Positions 2 through 40,524 of a stretch of 51,893 nt of DNA are shown here, one piece after another (positions within the stretch are counted from its first letter, which is position 1; every line of letters starts with the position of its first letter). The notes under the pieces are model-generated. The model saw only the letters and a program-made list of their open reading frames with translations, was not told the DNA's origin and did not search any database. Location: the NCBI GenBank assembly GCA_943359455.1, contig CALRHL010000005.1:1-51893 (forward strand), given 5' to 3'. Source of the DNA: Candidatus Uhrbacteria bacterium RIFOXYB12_FULL_58_10 (GTDB lineage Bacteria; Patescibacteriota; Patescibacteriia; UBA9934; GWF2-40-263). Position numbers and translations under genes: made by a program.

Positions 2-178
2 ATCATCGTTCCCTTTACCAAACTCGGTGAACGCATCTTTCATTTCGTCATTCCAACAACGAGTCATCTCCTCCTGATCGTTGGTCTCGTTATGATCTAT
101 TTTGTTGTGACAGAAATCGTCAAGCGCCTGTACTATCGAAGAACAGATCGAACGGCATTCTATGGACCCAAAGGATGA
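2..178 (+). CDS. C-terminal end of a cation-transporting P-type ATPase (partial)
   Basis: The reading frame is open from the window edge to a TGA at 176-178, giving about 58 residues. It contains one hydrophobic helix (SHLLLIVGLVMIYFVV) followed by TEIVKRLYYRR. A last membrane helix followed by a basic VKR-x-x-YRR tail is typical of magnesium-type P-type ATPases, which pump divalent cations across the membrane. The catalytic domains lie outside the window, so the substrate cannot be judged. The end overlaps the dnaG start by 17 nt in another frame. Any other multi-pass transporter with a similar tail is possible. Confidence 0.55.
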   Translation: MIVPFTKLGERIFHFVIPTTSHLLLIVGLVMIYFVVTEIVKRLYYRRTDRTAFYGPKG

Positions 179-2033
179 AATCAAATCAAGGCTCGATATT
201 GCCGAACTCATCGGCGAGTATTTGACATTGAAGCCAGCTGGGGTTTCACGTTTTCGTGCACTCTGTCCATTTCATACAGAAAAGACCCCTTCCTTTCATG
301 TCTCAGTAGACAAACAAATTTGGCATTGCTTTGGGTGTAACGAAGGGGGAGATTGCTTTTCCTTTGTGATGAAAATGGAAGGAATGGATTTTCCAGAAGC
401 GTTGTTGCATTTGGGAAAAAAAGTTGGAGTCGAGGTTCCGAGATATGCGGCGACGGATACCAATGAAAAACAACGGTTGATCGACATGCACGAACTCGCG
501 CGAAAATATTTTCGAAAAGTTTTGATGGAATCAAGTCTTGCGGTCACAGTCAGAGACTATGTGACACGGCGAGGAATTAACGATGAGCTTGCAGAAAAAT
601 TTAGCATTGGGTTTGCACCAGACACCTGGGATTCGCTCGTTGGATTTTTGGGAACGCGTGGATATTCAGCGACCGAAATAGAAAAAGCAGGTCTTGCGCT
701 TCGACGAAAAGATGGAAGTGGTTTGTATGATCGTTTCAGAAATCGTCTGATGATTCCGTTGCGTGACCAACACGGAAATACCGTTGGGTTTACCGGACGA
801 ATGATGCCTGGATCCTCTGAAAAAGATAGTGCAAAGTACATGAATTCTCCAGAAACTCAGATTTACCATAAAGGACGATTACTGTTTGGACTGGATCTTG
901 CGAAGCAGACGATTAAACAAGAAGGACGCGTGATTATTGTTGAAGGAAATCTTGATGTGGTCGCGTCTCATAAAGCGGGTGTTGAAAATGTTGTTGCGTC
1001 ATCTGGGACAGCCCTGACGGAAGAGCATCTTGCCCTTCTTAAACGTTTTACAAAAACGATCGTTTTTTCGTTTGACGCAGATGCGGCAGGATTTAAAGCG
1101 GCACAGCGTGGAATTGCCCTTGCTCGCGGCTCTCTATTTGACGTTCGAGTCGCCGTCCTTCCTATCGACGCAGGAAAAGATCCGGATGATGCTGTTCAAA
1201 AAAATCCACAGCTTTGGCGCGATGCGACATCAGATACCGCTCCGATTATGCAATACATCATTGAACGCGCCGTCGTTGAGCGAGACCTGACAAACATCGA
1301 TGATAAGCGAGCGGTTGCGGCACTTGTGCTGCCAGAACTTGAACAGATTTCGGACGTTGTCGAGCGCGAGCATTGGTTGCAGACCGTCGCAGATATTTTA
1401 AGAATTGACACTGCCCAGCTCCGTCCTGTCTCATGGGGGCGTCCCACTTCGCTAGGGCTTCGAGGGACAAGTAGGGACGGGGCCCCCATCGCCCGGAGCG
1501 AGAGGCTTGCGAAGTCAAGACCGAGTGAGGACGATGGGGTGTCGCGAAGCTCGGGGCCCCATGTGAAGCCTGCAGAGCACCGCCTGTCCCGCGACGAGCA
1601 GGCTGCTCGAGCCTTGCTCGCCTTTTTCATCCAGGATCCATCGATCCGCCCAGTCCTCATTCTTTCCCTTGAAGAGTCGCTCATCCCAACAGATAATCTA
1701 CGCATTCTTTACAATCACCTTCGCGAAGAGTACAATTCCTCTCAGTCAGTGGACGCGTCAAACCCATCATTTTATGGTCGGCTCTCTGCCCGTTTATCGG
1801 GCCTGGATCTCGCCCTTCTTCAGGAGCTCGCGCTCCTTGGGGAAACGCTTGTATCCGATATGCCTTCCGATCGGGTTTCTGAACAGATCCACGAACTTCT
1901 TCATTCTCTTAGCTCGTCTGCCCGTGATCGTCGTCGAAAAGCGATTGAGGGGGACATGCGCCGTGCAGAATCTGCCGGTGACCGAGATACCGTGAATCGA
2001 TTGATAGAAGAATTAAATAGTCTTCGCCCTTAG
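162..2033 (+). CDS. dnaG: DNA primase DnaG
   Basis: Primase that makes RNA primers at the replication fork. The N-terminal CHC2 zinc finger is intact (CPFH near residues 36-39, then CFGC near 56-59), followed by the RNA-polymerase core with [10 protein letters not shown] near 229-238. The TOPRIM domain shows VEGNLDVV (about 259-266) and the acidic [11 protein letters not shown]-terminal helical segment fits the helicase-binding domain. At 623 aa it is near family length, but about 44 residues between TOPRIM and the C-terminal domain (DNA 1431-1562) are a palindromic repeat insert shared with recJ. Start is ATG at 162, overlapping the preceding gene; rpoD follows 25 nt after the stop, an arrangement resembling the classical dnaG-rpoD macromolecular synthesis operon. 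Confidence 0.97.
1431..1562 (+). repeat. In-frame palindromic insertion element, copy 1 (in dnaG)
   Basis: GC-rich block bounded by TCATGGGGGC and GGGGCCCCATG, with internal arms CCCCATCG (1484-1491) and CGATGGGG (1532-1539). Positions 1476-1561 match the reverse complement of the recJ block at 21713-21814 with about four substitutions and a 2-nt indel. This copy has about 28 extra nt on its left side. It is read in frame as a serine/arginine-rich linker (around [17 protein letters not shown]) between dnaG domains. It resembles Rickettsia palindromic elements in behaviour; origin and mechanism are inferred. Confidence 0.85.
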
Positions 2034-5482: not shown

Positions 5483-5611
5483 TGACCGTCACTTAGTGAC
5501 GGTCAAAACAGACGATGATCAAAATACATTTAGATAACGCTATAAAATAACAATGGAATTACAAGACAAACATCTAAAACGATCTGACCGTCACTAAGTG
5601 ACGGTCAGATC
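5483..5611. repeat. Element with two terminal perfect palindromes, copy A
   Basis: TGACCGTCACT-T-AGTGACGGTCA at 5483-5505 and the same motif with the opposite central base at 5585-5607 (extended to GATC...GATC, 5581-5611) flank about 79 nt of AT-rich sequence. The block is repeated almost exactly at 7520-7653. The palindromes could be operators upstream of the membrane-protein gene or the ends of a small non-autonomous mobile element. Confidence 0.75.
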
Positions 5612-5661
5612 ATGTCCCGGTCAGATAGAACCGTGCGGACATTTGTACACTGCTGAGGCAA

Positions 5662-5769
5662 TGGTATTTTTGTGGTTCTGCAGCCCGGTTTAGATTGAAG
5701 CTTTCGACGATGGGACTTTGCAGTGCCTGTCTATATGTCCGTCAACTCTGTCCTGATCGGACAGAACTG
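5662..5769. repeat. Dispersed repeat R1, copy 2 (diverged)
   Basis: Begins ATTTTTGTGGTTCTGCAG and ends CCTGATCGGACAGAACTG. It is preceded by TGCTGAGGCAATGG, which also occurs (on the opposite strand) in the terminator beside copy 3. No membrane-protein gene adjoins this copy. The 5612-5881 stretch otherwise holds no gene I can support. Confidence 0.6.
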
Positions 5770-10603: not shown

Positions 10604-11488
10604 CTATTGGTGGATGACAGAGGTCAGAATTGCTTTCGCAATATCAATTCCTGTCACTCGCTCAAGCTCCTTGAACCCTGGGTTTGCGTTTACTTCGATC
10701 ACGAGCGGACCGCGGGGGGAGCGGAGGATGTCTACGCCGCATATTTCGAGATTGAATGTGTGTGCGGCGCGGATGGCGAGAGCTGTTTCGTCGGGGGAAA
10801 GCTCAACGTGGGTGCCGGTGCCGCCGATTGATGTGTTGGCGCGGATGTCGCCTGGTTTTGCGACGCGTTCCATGGCGGCGAGGATACGACCGTTGAGAAC
10901 GAACACGCGCAGGTCCCGACGGTCTGTTTCGATGTATTCTTCGATGATGACTGGGTTTCCGTCGCGTACGGCTAAGTAGTCGACAATAGGAAGAAACGTT
11001 TCCTGCGTTGGGGCAAAGAACACGCCTTTTCCGTGCGTACCGAAGGCGACTTTGCAGACGACAGGGAATCCGATTGATTTTGCGGTCGCGAGTAGATTTT
11101 CTGGTGTGTGTGCGATCGCCCATCGCGGCATGGGAACGCCGACTTCGGTCAGACGGATGTGCTGGTCGAGTTTATTTTTTGCAGCGGATATATTTCCGTT
11201 AATCACTCGCACTCCGGAATTTATAAATGCCTGAATTGTAAACTGATGCAACGAAGGTTCCTCAATAAAATTTGGTCTACAAATAACCGAATCAAAATCC
11301 AAAATTGACATTTCTGGACGACCGTCGCATTTTATCAATATTTTTTGATCGGAATTTTTTATTGTGAGAAGTGGTTCGTGGATGCGGACGATATCAATAC
11401 CAAGTTCACGACCGGCTTTTTCGAAGCGGTCGGCTTGCGCGTGGGAGTCGGCTTCTGGGTGTGAGAAAATGAGGATTCCTATTTTCAT
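10604..11488 (-). CDS. RimK-type ATP-grasp ligase
   Basis: A 294-aa ATP-grasp protein from the RimK-like group, which join amino acids (often glutamate) to a carboxylate. An N-terminal pre-ATP domain starts MKIGILIFSH. ATP-binding elements are VVCKVAFGTHGKGV (about 133-146), IIEEYI, DLRVFVLNGRILAAMER and the metal-binding DILRSPRGPLVIEVNANPG near the C-terminus. ATG 11488 is chosen because it overlaps the dus stop as ATGA; codons further upstream translate a dispersed repeat. It is in an operon behind dus. The substrate is unknown: candidates are a ribosomal protein, a peptide or a cofactor. Confidence 0.85.
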   Translation of the reverse strand: MKIGILIFSHPEADSHAQADRFEKAGRELGIDIVRIHEPLLTIKNSDQKILIKCDGRPEMSILDFDSVICRPNFIEEPSLHQFTIQAFINSGVRVINGNISAAKNKLDQHIRLTEVGVPMPRWAIAHTPENLLATAKSIGFPVVCKVAFGTHGKGVFFAPTQETFLPIVDYLAVRDGNPVIIEEYIETDRRDLRVFVLNGRILAAMERVAKPGDIRANTSIGGTGTHVELSPDETALAIRAAHTFNLEICGVDILRSPRGPLVIEVNANPGFKELERVTGIDIAKAILTSVIHQ

Positions 11489-12552
11489 AGTTGTCCGTAC
11501 GTCATTGCGAGCGAAGCGAAGCAATCTCTGGGGATTGCCGCGTCGGCTGATGCCTCCTCGCAATGACAAAGAGTGTTGAGAATTTTCTCAATTTCTGATC
11601 TCGACGAGGTCGTATGTAATTGTTCTCGAAAAAATTTCGCTCCAGGCACTCCTTTGAAATACCACGACAGATGTTTTCGAAAGGTGACGACTCCACGTTC
11701 GCCATATTGCTGACAATGGAGGTCGAGATGTTGCAAAACGGTTCGGACGCGTTCTTCCATGGTCACTACTCGTGCGACACGTCCAACAAGCACATCAGAA
11801 ATCTGTTCAAAGATCCATGGATTTCCGAGACCTCCGCGCGCGATTAAAAGTCCATCGCATCCAGAAACCTCGAGGGCTTTTGGAGCAAGCTCAGCTTTGT
11901 GGACATCTCCGTTGCACAAGACAGGAATTGAAACCGCTTCTTTTACACGCCGAATCATTTTCCAGTCTGCGACACCTGCATAGCCCTGACACTTTGTCCG
12001 TCCATGAACAGTAATCAGATCCGCTCCTGCATCTTCAAGAACTTTAGCAAATTCAATACAGTCAGTTGGATTTTCCCAACCAAGACGAATTTTGATCGAA
12101 AGTGGAACGTCGATAACCTCCTTCATCGCACGGACGATTTTTGTTGCGAGCTCTGGTTCTTTCATGAGCGCCGCACCGTTGAAGTTGTGTACGATCTTGT
12201 ACACTGGACATCCCATGTTCACATCAAACCCTTCCGGATGATGTTGCTCTGCAATAATTCGCGCTGATTCAGCCATGGTCGCTGGATCTGATCCAAAAAT
12301 TTGTTGAACCAATGGTCGTTCGTCAGGATGAATATCCGTCATCCCAAGTGTTTTATCATTGTGCCGAACCACAGCTTCAGACGACACCATTTCACGAAAA
12401 ACAACCAGACCAGACCCTACGACCCCTTCGACAAGCTCAGGGTCAAACGGTGAGCAATATCTCACCGTTTGACAAAACGCCGAATCGGTCATGTCGGCCA
12501 TCGGAGAGAGTGCTATAATAGGTTTCGGAAGCGTGTTCCAGTCCAGTTTCAT
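11485..12552 (-). CDS. dus: tRNA-dihydrouridine synthase with repeat-derived insertions
   Basis: A 355-aa FMN enzyme reducing uridines in tRNA D loops. Seen: MADMTDSAF, FREMVSSEAVV, DVNMGCPVYKIV with the catalytic cysteine region, KIRLGWENP, HGRTKCQGYAG and LCNGDV, all in family order. Two repeats are read in frame: about 13 residues around PFDPELVEG near residue 40, between MTDSAF and FREMVSSE where relatives are shorter, and the last roughly 25 residues (CHCEEASADAAIP...), which come from the dispersed repeat at 11501-11567. ATG 12552 lies 9 nt after a TAGACT box, so the mRNA may be leaderless. The stop overlaps the ATP-grasp start. Confidence 0.93.
   Translation of the reverse strand: MKLDWNTLPKPIIALSPMADMTDSAFCQTVRYCSPFDPELVEGVVGSGLVVFREMVSSEAVVRHNDKTLGMTDIHPDERPLVQQIFGSDPATMAESARIIAEQHHPEGFDVNMGCPVYKIVHNFNGAALMKEPELATKIVRAMKEVIDVPLSIKIRLGWENPTDCIEFAKVLEDAGADLITVHGRTKCQGYAGVADWKMIRRVKEAVSIPVLCNGDVHKAELAPKALEVSGCDGLLIARGGLGNPWIFEQISDVLVGRVARVVTMEERVRTVLQHLDLHCQQYGERGVVTFRKHLSWYFKGVPGAKFFREQLHTTSSRSEIEKILNTLCHCEEASADAAIPRDCFASLAMTYGQL
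11501..11567. repeat. 67-nt palindrome-ended repeat R2, copy 1 (inside dus 3' end)
   Basis: GTCATTGCGAG and CTCGCAATGAC form the ends; the interior includes AGCAATC and GATTGC arms. Related copy at 40432-40503. Here it is translated as the C-terminus of Dus and supplies the sequence just before the ATGA junction with the ATP-grasp gene. Confidence 0.85.
12424..12473. repeat. Palindromic insert in the 5' part of dus
   Basis: GTCAAACGGTGAG (12442-12454) and CTCACCGTTTGAC (12461-12473) form a perfect 13-bp stem with a 6-nt loop. It is preceded by CCCTTCGACAAGCTCAGGG, a widespread short dispersed repeat type. It is read in frame in dus as TVRYCSPFDPELVEG. Confidence 0.8.
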
Positions 12553-19135: not shown

Positions 19136-21048
19136 ACGAATCATCACAAAGACAATCGAGTCCCGACGTACGTAGTGCCGTTTCTGAGGCAACCACGCAT
19201 GTTTCGTATGCCGACCTCCAGCCGGCTGTTCGCACGCATGTTGATAATCTCACCGAACAGATGGCAGAGCTTGTTCGCAAGTATGGAAAAAAGCATCCAA
19301 AGGAGTTGGTGGAGCTTATGGAAAATGAGGAGATGAGTATCGAGGATGTACGAAAATTTGGCGCGCTTGGGAGATCGATTGGGGAGATGTTTGAAAAGAA
19401 TATGTTGCCTAAGGAGATGCGGAGGGATGCTTTGAGATTACGAGAAGAAGCAGAGAGACTTTTTCTGGAGGCGGATGAGCTATTTGAAAGACATCAATTG
19501 GGTGGAAATCAGCTTGATGCTCTTCCAGTTGAGGATCGAATTTCTGTTGGGGCAGGATATCTCCGTTTTGGGAACGATAAAATTTTACGTTCCATCTTGT
19601 ATGTTCCAAGGGAAGCTGCACAGCTTTTTGCATTGGCGGAAGATTATCCGACAGCAAATCAAAAGGCCTCGATGATTTTGAACATGATCGAAAAAAATTT
19701 GGTTCTTCTTCAAATCGCCAAATCTGCATGGAAACGAAGAAATAATGAGGCGTTTGAAACATCAATCGAAAATGCAGATCCGAGCCACTCGAAGGACGCA
19801 TTTCTTGAAATGGTTATCCGTGACGTCTTAGATGAAAAAGATTTTGAAACAGCAGAATATCTTGCAGAATCTGGTAGTGACTGGGTTAAACGCGCGGAAA
19901 TGTTTTTAACCATTGCTCACCAAGCAATCTCGATAAAACAAGAAGCGATTCACTCTATACAACGAGCGGAAGAGGAAATACCAAAAGAATATATCTCTGA
20001 TAACGGAATTCATGGAAAAATTGCCGTTCAGTATGCGCGTTTTGGTATGGTCGAGGATGTAAAGAGAGTTATGAAGAAAGGTTTAGCATTTATCACCTTT
20101 TCTTTGCCAGAAATCGCGGAAGGGTTTGTTGCTTTTGGTCAAGATGAGGCGGCATTGAAACTCGGCTCAGAATTACCAAATTGGGAAGTGATGTCGCGTA
20201 TGAAGGTGTTTGGAGCAATTGCGATTGAACAGGTAAAACGCGGGAGAAATTCCGATAAGGCATTCAAAGTAGTACGGGAAACTTCTCAGATTTTTTCTGA
20301 TCCATTTCAAGGAGTGACCGCAAATATTATTCTTGCGCAGGCTCATTTTTCCCGAGGTGAGCACGTGGAGTTTTCGCACACGCTTTCCCTGATTGAAAAA
20401 GGAATTGAAAAAGTTGCCCTAAAGAGTGATAAAAAATTAGTTTATTTAGATTTAGAAGATTTTGCAAAAAAAATATATGAACAAAGAAAGGATCCCCAAC
20501 AGGTGATTCGAGTTATGGATAAGCTCATTTCATCTGAAGAGAATCTACAGGAGTTATGTGACAAACAACTCTCCTTTGCAAGATTTTTACATTCCATTCA
20601 TCAAACAGATGATCGTACCATCAATGTTGAAGATGTCCTTATGGTCGCGAGAGAAACGGCAGAGAGAAGAGAGTCGGTATGGCTTCTGCTTGAAGTGGCA
20701 CGAGCATCTTTTCAAATCGCATCAAAGTTTACAAATGTAAGTTTCGAAAAAGCCATTTATGTCGCATTAGATAAATTGCATAAGGGGATACAAGATCGTC
20801 TCGCAATCGATCTTTATTACGAGGATTTCTTCAAGAGTATGAGATCAATTATTGAAGCAAAAGCGAGTGCAGGCTTTTCTTATACAGAACAGATTGATTT
20901 GCTTCAAGAAGAAATGAGCAATTTTCGAGGAAAAAAAGAGTTTCATGCAAAATTTTTTGCATTGCAGCTATCTCTTGTAAACATTTTTCTTGATAAAGCC
21001 CAGGAATTAGACAGAGAAAATCGTTTTATTAAATTTGAAAAAACATGA
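19132..21048 (+). CDS. Large helical-repeat protein, tandem paralog 2
   Basis: A 638-aa paralog of the preceding protein. The N-terminal module (about residues 23-98) is nearly identical in DNA (about 19207-19420 versus 17325-17538), whereas the remaining roughly 530 residues are only distantly similar yet keep the same helical layout and the ending LDKAQELDR. This contrast suggests gene conversion or strong constraint on the module. ATGA overlaps join it to both neighbours, so it is co-translated with recJ. No known family recognised. Confidence 0.75.
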   Translation: MNESSQRQSSPDVRSAVSEATTHVSYADLQPAVRTHVDNLTEQMAELVRKYGKKHPKELVELMENEEMSIEDVRKFGALGRSIGEMFEKNMLPKEMRRDALRLREEAERLFLEADELFERHQLGGNQLDALPVEDRISVGAGYLRFGNDKILRSILYVPREAAQLFALAEDYPTANQKASMILNMIEKNLVLLQIAKSAWKRRNNEAFETSIENADPSHSKDAFLEMVIRDVLDEKDFETAEYLAESGSDWVKRAEMFLTIAHQAISIKQEAIHSIQRAEEEIPKEYISDNGIHGKIAVQYARFGMVEDVKRVMKKGLAFITFSLPEIAEGFVAFGQDEAALKLGSELPNWEVMSRMKVFGAIAIEQVKRGRNSDKAFKVVRETSQIFSDPFQGVTANIILAQAHFSRGEHVEFSHTLSLIEKGIEKVALKSDKKLVYLDLEDFAKKIYEQRKDPQQVIRVMDKLISSEENLQELCDKQLSFARFLHSIHQTDDRTINVEDVLMVARETAERRESVWLLLEVARASFQIASKFTNVSFEKAIYVALDKLHKGIQDRLAIDLYYEDFFKSMRSIIEAKASAGFSYTEQIDLLQEEMSNFRGKKEFHAKFFALQLSLVNIFLDKAQELDRENRFIKFEKT

Positions 21049-22916
21049 CAAAACACTGGATCACAAATCAACAGGCGTCGGATGAGTTTCGGCAACAGTT
21101 TCCGGAGGTGCATCCGGTTGTTTTGTCGCTGCTGTGGAATCGAGGGGTGCGGACACAGGAGGAAGTTGATGTTTTTTTTGGTCCGGACTGGAGTCGGGAT
21201 GTTTTTTCGCCAAGTTTGTTTCGGAATATGGACGTGGCTGTTACGAAGGTTTTTGAGGTGCTCGTGAATAGCGAGATGATCACCGTGCATGGCGATTACG
21301 ACGCGGACGGGGTTTGTGGATCGGCGGTGCTGATTTCGACGCTTAGGGATTTGTGTCGCGCGTTTGGATTTGACGAGTCGAAGATTAGCTCGTTTATTCC
21401 AGATCGGGAAAAAGATGGATATGGGATGTCTGTTGCGACGGTTGAGCATTTGGCTTTGCACGACAAGACGAAGCTGATTATTACGGTGGATTGTGGAATT
21501 TCGAACAAGCCAGCGATTGATCGAGCAAAGGAGCTTGGGATTGATACGATTGTGTGTGATCATCATACGATGCCGGCGGAACTGCCGGATGCAGCAATTC
21601 TGATCCATCCGCTTGTTCCGGGGGAAACGTATCCGAACAAGACGCTGTGTGGAACAGGGGTTGCTTTCAAGCTGGCGTGCGGGTTACTGGAGGCGGGGCG
21701 AGTACAGCAAGCTCATGGGGCCCCGCTTCGCGACACCCCATCGTCCTCACTCGGTCTCGACTCCGCGAGCCTCTCGCTCCGGTCGATGGGGGCCCCGTCG
21801 CTACGCCCCCATGAGCCAGTGACTGCTTCTGGTTTGATTCCTGACGGTCACGAAAAATGGCTTTTGGATCTGGTTGCGATCGCGACCGTGACGGACGTGA
21901 TGCCACTTACAGGAGAGAATCGATTGTTGGAAACGTTTGGCCTCAAAGTTCTGAACAAAACAAAACGTGTTGGACTTCGGAAATTAATAGAAATTTCAGG
22001 AGGAAAATTTGGCGAACTCGACACGTACTCGATCGGGTTTCAGATTGGTCCACGTATAAATGCGGCGGGACGAATGCATCACGCAAGTGCTGCACTCAAC
22101 GTTTTGCTTGAGGAAGATGAGTTGCGCGCGACGGTCCTTGTGAGTGAATTAAATGCGTTGAATATCGTCAGACAAAAAGCTTCAGACGCGATGTATAAGG
22201 AGGCGATGGGGAAGATTGAAGCGAAGCAGTCTCTCATCATCGTCACAGGCGACGGTTGGTCGGCTGGGTTGGTTGGACTTGTGGCAGGGAAACTTGTGAA
22301 TCAGTTTGGGAAACCTGTGTATGTCGTCGGACGGTCACCGGACGGGAAATATGTCGGATCAGGTCGATCGGTGGAGGGATTTGATGTGACGGAATGTTTG
22401 CGTTCGGCTGCAGATGATCTCGACAAATTTGGCGGACATCCGCAAGCGTGTGGATTTTCGGTGACAGGAGATGAGAAATTCGAGCGTGCATCAAAAAAAA
22501 TGTATGCGTTCGCCGAAAACGCACTCAAAGATCGCGAGCTCGTTCCCACTGTCAAAATCGACGCGGTGATCGATCTGTCCGACGTGACGTGGGTCCTTCT
22601 CGATCAACTCCAATGTTTCGCTCCATTTGGCGAAAAGAATCCCAAGCCACTTTTTTCCTGCACAAAAGTTTCTGTTTCAAATATCGGAACGGTCGGAGCT
22701 GACGCCAAGCATCTCCGCCTGACGGTTACGTCGGCAAGTGGTAAGATGGTCAAAATGATCGGTTTTGGTTTTGGGGAATGGGCACAAAAAGTCCGTCTTG
22801 GTGATAAAATCGATGTTGTGTTTGAGCTTGGGGTGAATGAGTGGAATGGGAATAGAGAATTGCAGTTGAGAATTGTGGATATGAAAATACCTGTAGTGAG
22901 TAAAATCGAACTATGA
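21045..22916 (+). CDS. recJ: Single-stranded-DNA exonuclease RecJ with palindromic insert
   Basis: A 5'-3' exonuclease of the DHH superfamily in recombination and repair, 623 aa. Motifs are HGDYDADGVCGSAVL (about 84-98), VDCGIS, CDHHTMP (about 172-178) and GPRINAAGRMHH (about 338-349); a C-terminal OB-like domain follows. A 34-codon palindromic element (21713-21814) lies in frame between CGLLEAGRVQ and EKWLLDLVAIATV, where relatives have a short loop. The last residues PVVSKIEL lie in another dispersed repeat. The start overlaps the upstream gene and the stop overlaps rnhA, both as ATGA. Confidence 0.95.
   Translation: MTKHWITNQQASDEFRQQFPEVHPVVLSLLWNRGVRTQEEVDVFFGPDWSRDVFSPSLFRNMDVAVTKVFEVLVNSEMITVHGDYDADGVCGSAVLISTLRDLCRAFGFDESKISSFIPDREKDGYGMSVATVEHLALHDKTKLIITVDCGISNKPAIDRAKELGIDTIVCDHHTMPAELPDAAILIHPLVPGETYPNKTLCGTGVAFKLACGLLEAGRVQQAHGAPLRDTPSSSLGLDSASLSLRSMGAPSLRPHEPVTASGLIPDGHEKWLLDLVAIATVTDVMPLTGENRLLETFGLKVLNKTKRVGLRKLIEISGGKFGELDTYSIGFQIGPRINAAGRMHHASAALNVLLEEDELRATVLVSELNALNIVRQKASDAMYKEAMGKIEAKQSLIIVTGDGWSAGLVGLVAGKLVNQFGKPVYVVGRSPDGKYVGSGRSVEGFDVTECLRSAADDLDKFGGHPQACGFSVTGDEKFERASKKMYAFAENALKDRELVPTVKIDAVIDLSDVTWVLLDQLQCFAPFGEKNPKPLFSCTKVSVSNIGTVGADAKHLRLTVTSASGKMVKMIGFGFGEWAQKVRLGDKIDVVFELGVNEWNGNRELQLRIVDMKIPVVSKIEL
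21713..21814 (-). repeat. In-frame palindromic insertion element, copy 2 (in recJ)
   Basis: Exactly 102 nt (34 codons) bounded by TCATGGGG and CCCCATGA. It is the reverse complement of the dnaG element core (1476-1561). In recJ it is translated around [24 protein letters not shown]; the dnaG copy is open in that same frame on its minus strand, so the element can be read through from either side. Confidence 0.87.
22888..22915 (+). repeat. Start-codon-adjacent repeat R3, copy 1
   Basis: TACCTGTAGTGAG followed by TAAAATCGAACTATG; the ATG is the rnhA start and the upstream part encodes the RecJ C-terminus. A copy with three substitutions lies at 24997-25024, ending at the pilD ATG. Confidence 0.7.
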
Positions 22917-40398: not shown

Positions 40399-40431
40399 AA
40401 CAAGATCATCGTAGCAGGCAGTTGAAGTTTT

Positions 40432-40503
40432 GTCATTGCGAGGAGGTACGACGAAGCAATCCCGCGAGAGATTGCTTCGGTCGCTCCACTCCCTCGCAAT
40501 GAC
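40432..40503. repeat. 72-nt palindrome-ended repeat R2, copy 2
   Basis: GTCATTGCGAG (40432-40442) and CTCGCAATGAC (40493-40503), with internal AGCAATC and GATTGCT arms. It lies in the divergent ribE/antiporter intergenic region, just upstream of the antiporter -10. Related to 11501-11567 in dus. Confidence 0.85.
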
Positions 40504-40509
40504 AGAGTG

Positions 40510-40518
40510 TGCTAAAAT
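40510..40518 (+). promoter_or_regulatory. Extended -10 of a predicted leaderless promoter (antiporter)
   Basis: TGC-TAAAAT (hexamer 40513-40518), then 6 nt to the ATG at 40525. It touches the right end of repeat R2, so the repeat may contribute the -35 region. Confidence 0.45.
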
Positions 40519-40524
40519 AAGTCT

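Follow-up and report, generated by a model that had tools for sequence, protein, structure and literature searches.

Protein-coding palindromes are already known as a wider kind of element. The palindromic elements of Wolbachia are protein-coding palindromic repeats in a reduced genome. The Rickettsia palindromic element (RPE; Ogata et al. 2000, as reviewed in PMC2229807 and PMC10969869) is a hairpin of about 100-150 nt which is present in several copies. Intragenic GTAG/CGTC REPs form in-frame palindromes in uvrABCD, recBCD and polymerase genes (Di Nocera et al. 2013, PMC3733652; the Wolbachia elements are named there as well). As bacterial MITEs we considered ERIC, NEMIS and RUP (PMC2229807).

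The stretch of DNA analysed here, referred to as the window, comprises 51,893 nt of contig CALRHL010000005.1 (GCA_943359455.1) from Candidatus Uhrbacteria bacterium RIFOXYB12_FULL_58_10. The source genome, labelled G000, amounts to 1.07 Mb on 44 contigs (among them C2, C6, C7, C11 and C27) and is 97.7% complete. The initial annotation had described a palindromic block lying in frame in the dnaG linker between the TOPRIM and C-terminal domains, and a reversed copy of it in recJ. Both are present, and we named the element UPE1:

162-2033, plus strand: dnaG (DNA primase), host gene, Pfam primase match
1433-1562, plus strand: UPE1 copy in dnaG, in frame, in the linker from DnaB_bind/Toprim to the C-terminal domain
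1441-1470, plus strand: nested 30-nt insert GTCCCACTTCGCTAGGGCTTCGAGGGACAA in the dnaG copy, recognised by sequence comparison of copies
21045-22916, plus strand: recJ, host gene, Pfam RecJ match
21711-21714, no strand assigned: GCTC, copy-specific 4-nt flank of the recJ copy, pairing with GAGC opposite
21715-21812, minus strand: UPE1 copy in recJ, in frame, in a loop joining two helices
21813-21816, no strand assigned: GAGC, copy-specific 4-nt flank of the recJ copy, partner of GCTC

The dnaG copy extends over 130 nt from ATGGGG to CCCCAT, including the nested insert, which is unique to this copy, is found in no other UPE1 copy and weakly resembles repeats on C2 and C7. The recJ copy measures 98 nt and is inverted relative to that in dnaG. 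A within-window search aligns the two with 92.5% identity over 93 nt (E ~2e-34); they differ by five substitutions and a 2-nt indel, close to the approximately four substitutions and 2-nt indel initially reported. As had also been stated, both host frames stay open across UPE1, with 623 codons each. We would like to mention further repeats seen alongside. The window contains palindromes of the GTCATTGCGAGG type at 11501-11566, overlapping the end of the ORF at 11485-12552, and at 40421-40520, which belong to a separate repeat family. At C7:38040-38206 and C2:65436-65602 there are CTTCG-rich repeats in tandem, spaced by about 102 bp and seemingly close to tRNA genes; these repeats have 17 nt in common with the dnaG block.

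Copies were located by sequence search, by a covariance model and then by a second model. G000 harbours seven of them, five in genes (dnaG, recJ, uvrB, a Y-family polymerase (IMS) and a UvrD-type helicase with a PD-(D/E)XK nuclease domain, AddA/RecB-like) and two intergenic. One of the latter occupies the interval between frr and the glycyl-tRNA synthetase gene on C2. The other, on C27, adjoins the RNase III gene and consists of the inner core alone within a perfect inverted repeat of about 22 bp. Since the other G000 copies match those of the window at E 1e-19 to 1e-32, chance resemblance is excluded. In four congeners (G001 to G004) the covariance model detects 11 further copies, situated in dnaG, recJ, tgt and between genes; the neighbours of intergenic copies (frr, glyS, rnc, atpC, scpB, recR, dinB) were assigned by eye from sequence. 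Outside these five genomes it finds two copies in G043 and weak ones in G119; with the second model, G018 contributes another five, and G027 and G057 a single copy apiece. Those with context examined outside the genus, including the five of G018, look intergenic. Hence UPE1 is more widespread than the initial annotation had it. It is present in no fewer than five genomes of the genus, at a low load of one to seven copies per genome, and weaker relatives exist in other parts of the order; where it lies inside genes, these are mostly ones for replication and repair. An Rfam 15 search of the window and the copies gave no match at UPE1 above the gathering score, a search of a phage collection gave none, and neither did a pattern scan of viral contigs. 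A weak, partial plasmid match of 37 nt was judged to be due to chance. At L006:37-102 (on C11, near uvrB) Rfam identifies a DUF3800-IX RNA with 55 bits (gathering score 37), and the ORF beside it contains VFVDESGDSG and looks like a DUF3800 protein. Our searches of the open-access literature for palindromic repeats in Patescibacteria turned up no account of an element of this kind.

The mobile unit, ATGGGG...CCCCAT, spans about 77-101 nt, and full copies form a single long stem with a predicted fold energy of about -48 to -67 kcal/mol. An outer arm, ATGGGG/CCCCAT, is followed by a 5-bp arm of variable sequence and by an inner arm similar to CCCCATCG, while the purine-rich motifs GGAGCGA and AGYGAGGA are conserved and unpaired. 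In an alignment of nine copies 95% of the cells are paired and 15 of the 33 pairs are changed on both sides, neither value being reached by any shuffle. In an alignment of 22 copies the latter number rises to 24 of 33 (0/500 shuffles as high), and 94.8% of the cells are paired, versus 76.9% after shuffling and 33-41% in slid controls. As the larger alignment was fitted to the model, the nine-copy covariation count is the fairer one. The stem covariation could be a sign of selection on RNA. Selection for a single peptide is ruled out by the in-gene copies being read in three different frames. Selection for open frames was rejected as well, as their number per copy does not exceed that in shuffled copies. 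A basic, nucleic-acid-friendly peptide as the reason for tolerance was likewise dismissed, the net charges ranging from -1 to +3 without any trend.

Alignments reveal in-frame insertion with empty orthologues for uvrB, recJ, the polymerase, the helicase, tgt and dnaG. In UvrB, about 32 residues are gained between PVTG and GQVEDL in G000 only; the block is absent in 28 other aligned UvrB sequences. The same segment bears different extra residues in G015, G046, G050 and G054, and the G016 sequence is truncated. The blocks in recJ, the polymerase, the helicase and tgt (of G003) are missing from most orthologues, and distant relatives lack the block in DnaG and RecJ. In most orthologues without UPE1 the RecJ loop region is 90 nt long, compared with 207-210 nt where it is filled, all multiples of three. 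The atpD-atpC interval contains UPE1 in G001, G002 and G004 but not in G003, the scpA-scpB interval contains it in G001 but not in G004, and the site upstream of dinB (the gene orthologous to the Y-family polymerase) is occupied in G001 and vacant in both G002 and G003. On the concatenated tree, (G003,(G000,(G002,(G001,G004)))) with support of 0.988-1.0, these fillings nest, with atpC in three genomes, dnaG and recJ in two of those and scpB and dinB in one. Judged from the aligned sequences, the fillings are thus nested or lineage-specific. Only dnaG and recJ depart from the nesting, being occupied in G000 and, separately on the tree, in G001 plus G004.

The dnaG and recJ sites might each have been filled once in an ancestor; G002 and G003 would then have lost the element, and gene conversion would have homogenised the copies. 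Both clades carry the copies in the same DnaG linker and the same RecJ loop, and copies within a genome are mostly more alike than copies of the same gene across species, which would suit such a course of events. It would, however, require four losses on the tree, and the dnaG copies of G000 and G004 differ in reading frame and start offset. In addition, the elements are 80-85% identical in DNA, yet the host proteins DnaG and RecJ are only 67-69% identical between the clades (DnaG 67%). We consider single ancestral insertions unlikely. In view of the absence of UPE1 from both sites in G002 and G003, the differing dnaG frames and the host identity of 67-69%, we take the dnaG and recJ events as independent.

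Directly outside ATGGGG/CCCCAT, about four nucleotides vary among the copies and are complementary inside each copy. At positions -1 to -4 complementarity amounts to 100, 83, 83 and 75%, and beyond to 17-42%; the complementary run has a mean length of 4.4 as opposed to 0.7 in rearranged pairs (0/5000). Examples are TTTT/AAAA at scpB, GCGA/TCGC at atpC, GTAT/ATAC on C2 and GCTC/GAGC at both recJ and dinB. The recJ copy of G001 has a run of 17 bp; several positions of the corresponding arm in G004 are different, the changes affecting both sides. Slow compensatory evolution of the flanks is unlikely, since copies with near-identical cores (96-98%) carry different ones. Most in-gene units with good arms have a length of 2 modulo 3, so that the unit plus four nucleotides preserves the frame; this fits four added bases without proving them. 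Three processes might account for the complementarity: UPE1 may insert at palindromes, its insertion may produce an inverted copy, or template switching, which has been proposed to build and mend hairpins (PMC8794818), may have acted afterwards. The empty scpB site of G004 contains no matching palindrome, and at dinB the flanks would fit one. Short direct repeats were seen at uvrB and atpC only, judged by eye from the flanks. Candidate target-site duplications of fixed length occur as isolated cases, none of them consistent across copies. The copy-specific 4-nt inverted flanks provide a concrete clue to the chemistry of insertion.

UPE1 is, in our opinion, probably a non-autonomous mobile DNA hairpin which lands in or between genes and persists within genes where the frame is kept. 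It would move as DNA, probably mobilised in trans and possibly in the form of a folded single strand; we infer this movement from comparing sequences. Against this reading count the low copy numbers, the possible selection on RNA, and the failure to find a consistent target-site duplication or a linked transposase. Insertion would proceed in either orientation, inside or between genes, and, as the four complementary flanking nucleotides of most copies suggest, at short palindromes or with their creation. In-gene copies would survive only if the net insertion preserves the frame and sits in a linker or loop, there to be translated as a presumably disordered peptide.

Neither a transposase linked to UPE1 nor a parent insertion sequence was found. 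G000 does possess two Y1_Tnp (RAYT-like) genes, and UPE1 might be a REP/BIME-type repeat mobilised by one of these resident transposases, given that GTAG or GGAG precedes the inner stem of many copies and that palindromes and repair genes are insertion sites of published REPs too (PMC3733652). Yet both Y1 genes are flanked by palindromes which differ in sequence from UPE1, unlike a cognate RAYT flanked by the same repeat, and no UPE1 copy adjoins either gene. A RAYT was therefore rejected as the cognate transposase. Moreover, the tetranucleotide is also found as GAAG or GAAA and is thus not a fixed tag. Mobilisation as a REP/BIME-type repeat accordingly seems improbable to us. The palindrome GATCTGACCGTCACTAAGTGACGGTCAGATC at 5581-5680 of the window is the same repeat as that flanking the RAYT-like Y1 gene on C6.

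We count eight independent in-gene events (dnaG, recJ, helicase, polymerase and uvrB in G000, dnaG and recJ in G001/G004, tgt in G003), seven of which fall into replication or repair genes, with dnaG and recJ hit twice each. Assuming that such genes make up 12% of coding sequence, a hand calculation gives a chance of about 3e-6 for at least seven of eight events, and of about 1e-4 for at least five of six if the two events which prompted the search are omitted; the class itself was suggested by the data, and both values are uncorrected for tolerance. Nearby events within the class lie upstream of dinB (G001) and downstream of recR (G003), those outside it at atpD/atpC, scpA/scpB and frr/glycyl-tRNA synthetase. 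The same repair-gene bias was reported for unrelated REPs by Di Nocera et al. (2013), where tRNA pseudouridine synthase genes are also mentioned (PMC3733652).

Together with the strong compensatory changes and the conserved unpaired purine motifs, this distribution inside and near replication and repair genes might indicate a functional RNA, e.g. a protein-binding or RNase-cleaved hairpin, selected to co-regulate DNA-repair mRNAs as a regulon. UPE1 occurs, however, in both orientations relative to the host gene, so that the mRNA bears different strands, and its insertion sites are not conserved across species. Furthermore, copies are also present at atpD/atpC, frr/glycyl-tRNA synthetase and tgt, and the G018 copies look intergenic. 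An RNA regulon therefore appears very improbable.

With nearly even chances, the bias could reflect mere tolerance, long multidomain enzymes offering many loops which accept any insert. In the AlphaFold model of RecJ, residues 227-262 form a loop between two helices with pLDDT <50, the rest being well folded (mean pLDDT 84), which suggests that RecJ tolerates the insert as a predicted disordered loop. Other inserts, some of them clearly palindromic, occupy the same loops of RecJ (G002, G015), UvrB (G015), Tgt (G016) and DnaG (G005) in relatives, as looked at in the UPE1-hit genes only, which is not a fair count. Against tolerance, many other long multidomain enzymes exist, yet seven of eight events hit one class, dnaG and recJ twice each. 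Among these inserts we note a second family (HFSGV...) in UvrB of G000 (residues ~165-195) and in RecJ and UvrB of G015, a CHSERSEES...AQDDK insert in tgt of G016 and a IASSPSRPSTSSGNKAPRND insert in dnaG of G005, the latter two in loops hit by UPE1 in other species. A bolder idea, to which we assign a small probability, is that mobile hairpins are directed towards genes encoding nucleic-acid enzymes, each insertion writing a new 4-nt inverted flank; for example, the folded single-strand intermediate might be captured by a DNA- or RNA-binding protein that is still emerging from the ribosome next to the gene encoding it. If true, steering would explain the build-up of unrelated palindromes in repair and tRNA-modification genes across unrelated phyla. 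The two independent events each in dnaG and recJ within one genus constitute a natural replicate for weighing targeting, tolerance and selection for altered repair.

Returning to the described systems, we read UPE1 as a new family of protein-coding palindromic elements which would work like RPEs and intragenic REPs, extending the small number of in-frame palindrome sets on record by one from Patescibacteria. The mobile, RPE-like character proposed at the outset holds: UPE1 shows multiple dispersed copies, clean empty sites in orthologues, in-frame insertion and a stable, covarying hairpin. Neither of the two refuting outcomes named in the initial annotation materialised, as the block is missing from distant relatives and further copies exist. 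Like RPEs, UPE1 occurs both in intergenic positions and, with the frame preserved, within unrelated, conserved protein genes, whose products apparently accept the additional peptide. It differs from them in phylum and hairpin, the likeness being one of description rather than of alignment to an RPE consensus, and in having fixed ATGGGG/CCCCAT ends, copy-specific complementary flanks and in-gene copies almost exclusively in replication and repair genes. The Wolbachia elements, belonging to a different lineage, are likewise comparable by description. With MITEs UPE1 has in common that it is short and non-autonomous with terminal inverted repeats and presumably stable hairpin transcripts, but neither a consistent target-site duplication nor a parent insertion sequence was detected for it, and the whole unit is one hairpin. 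Intragenic REPs resemble it as in-frame palindromes in replication and repair genes, some also sitting inside other palindromes. They measure, however, 20-40 nt and carry a GTAG or CGTC tag, whereas UPE1 has 77-101 nt with GTAG, GGAG, GAAG or GAAA at the 5' foot in place of one constant tag, and no transposase could be linked to it. Though differently built, UPE1 thus repeats the preference of REPs for replication and repair genes reported in 2013 (PMC3733652).
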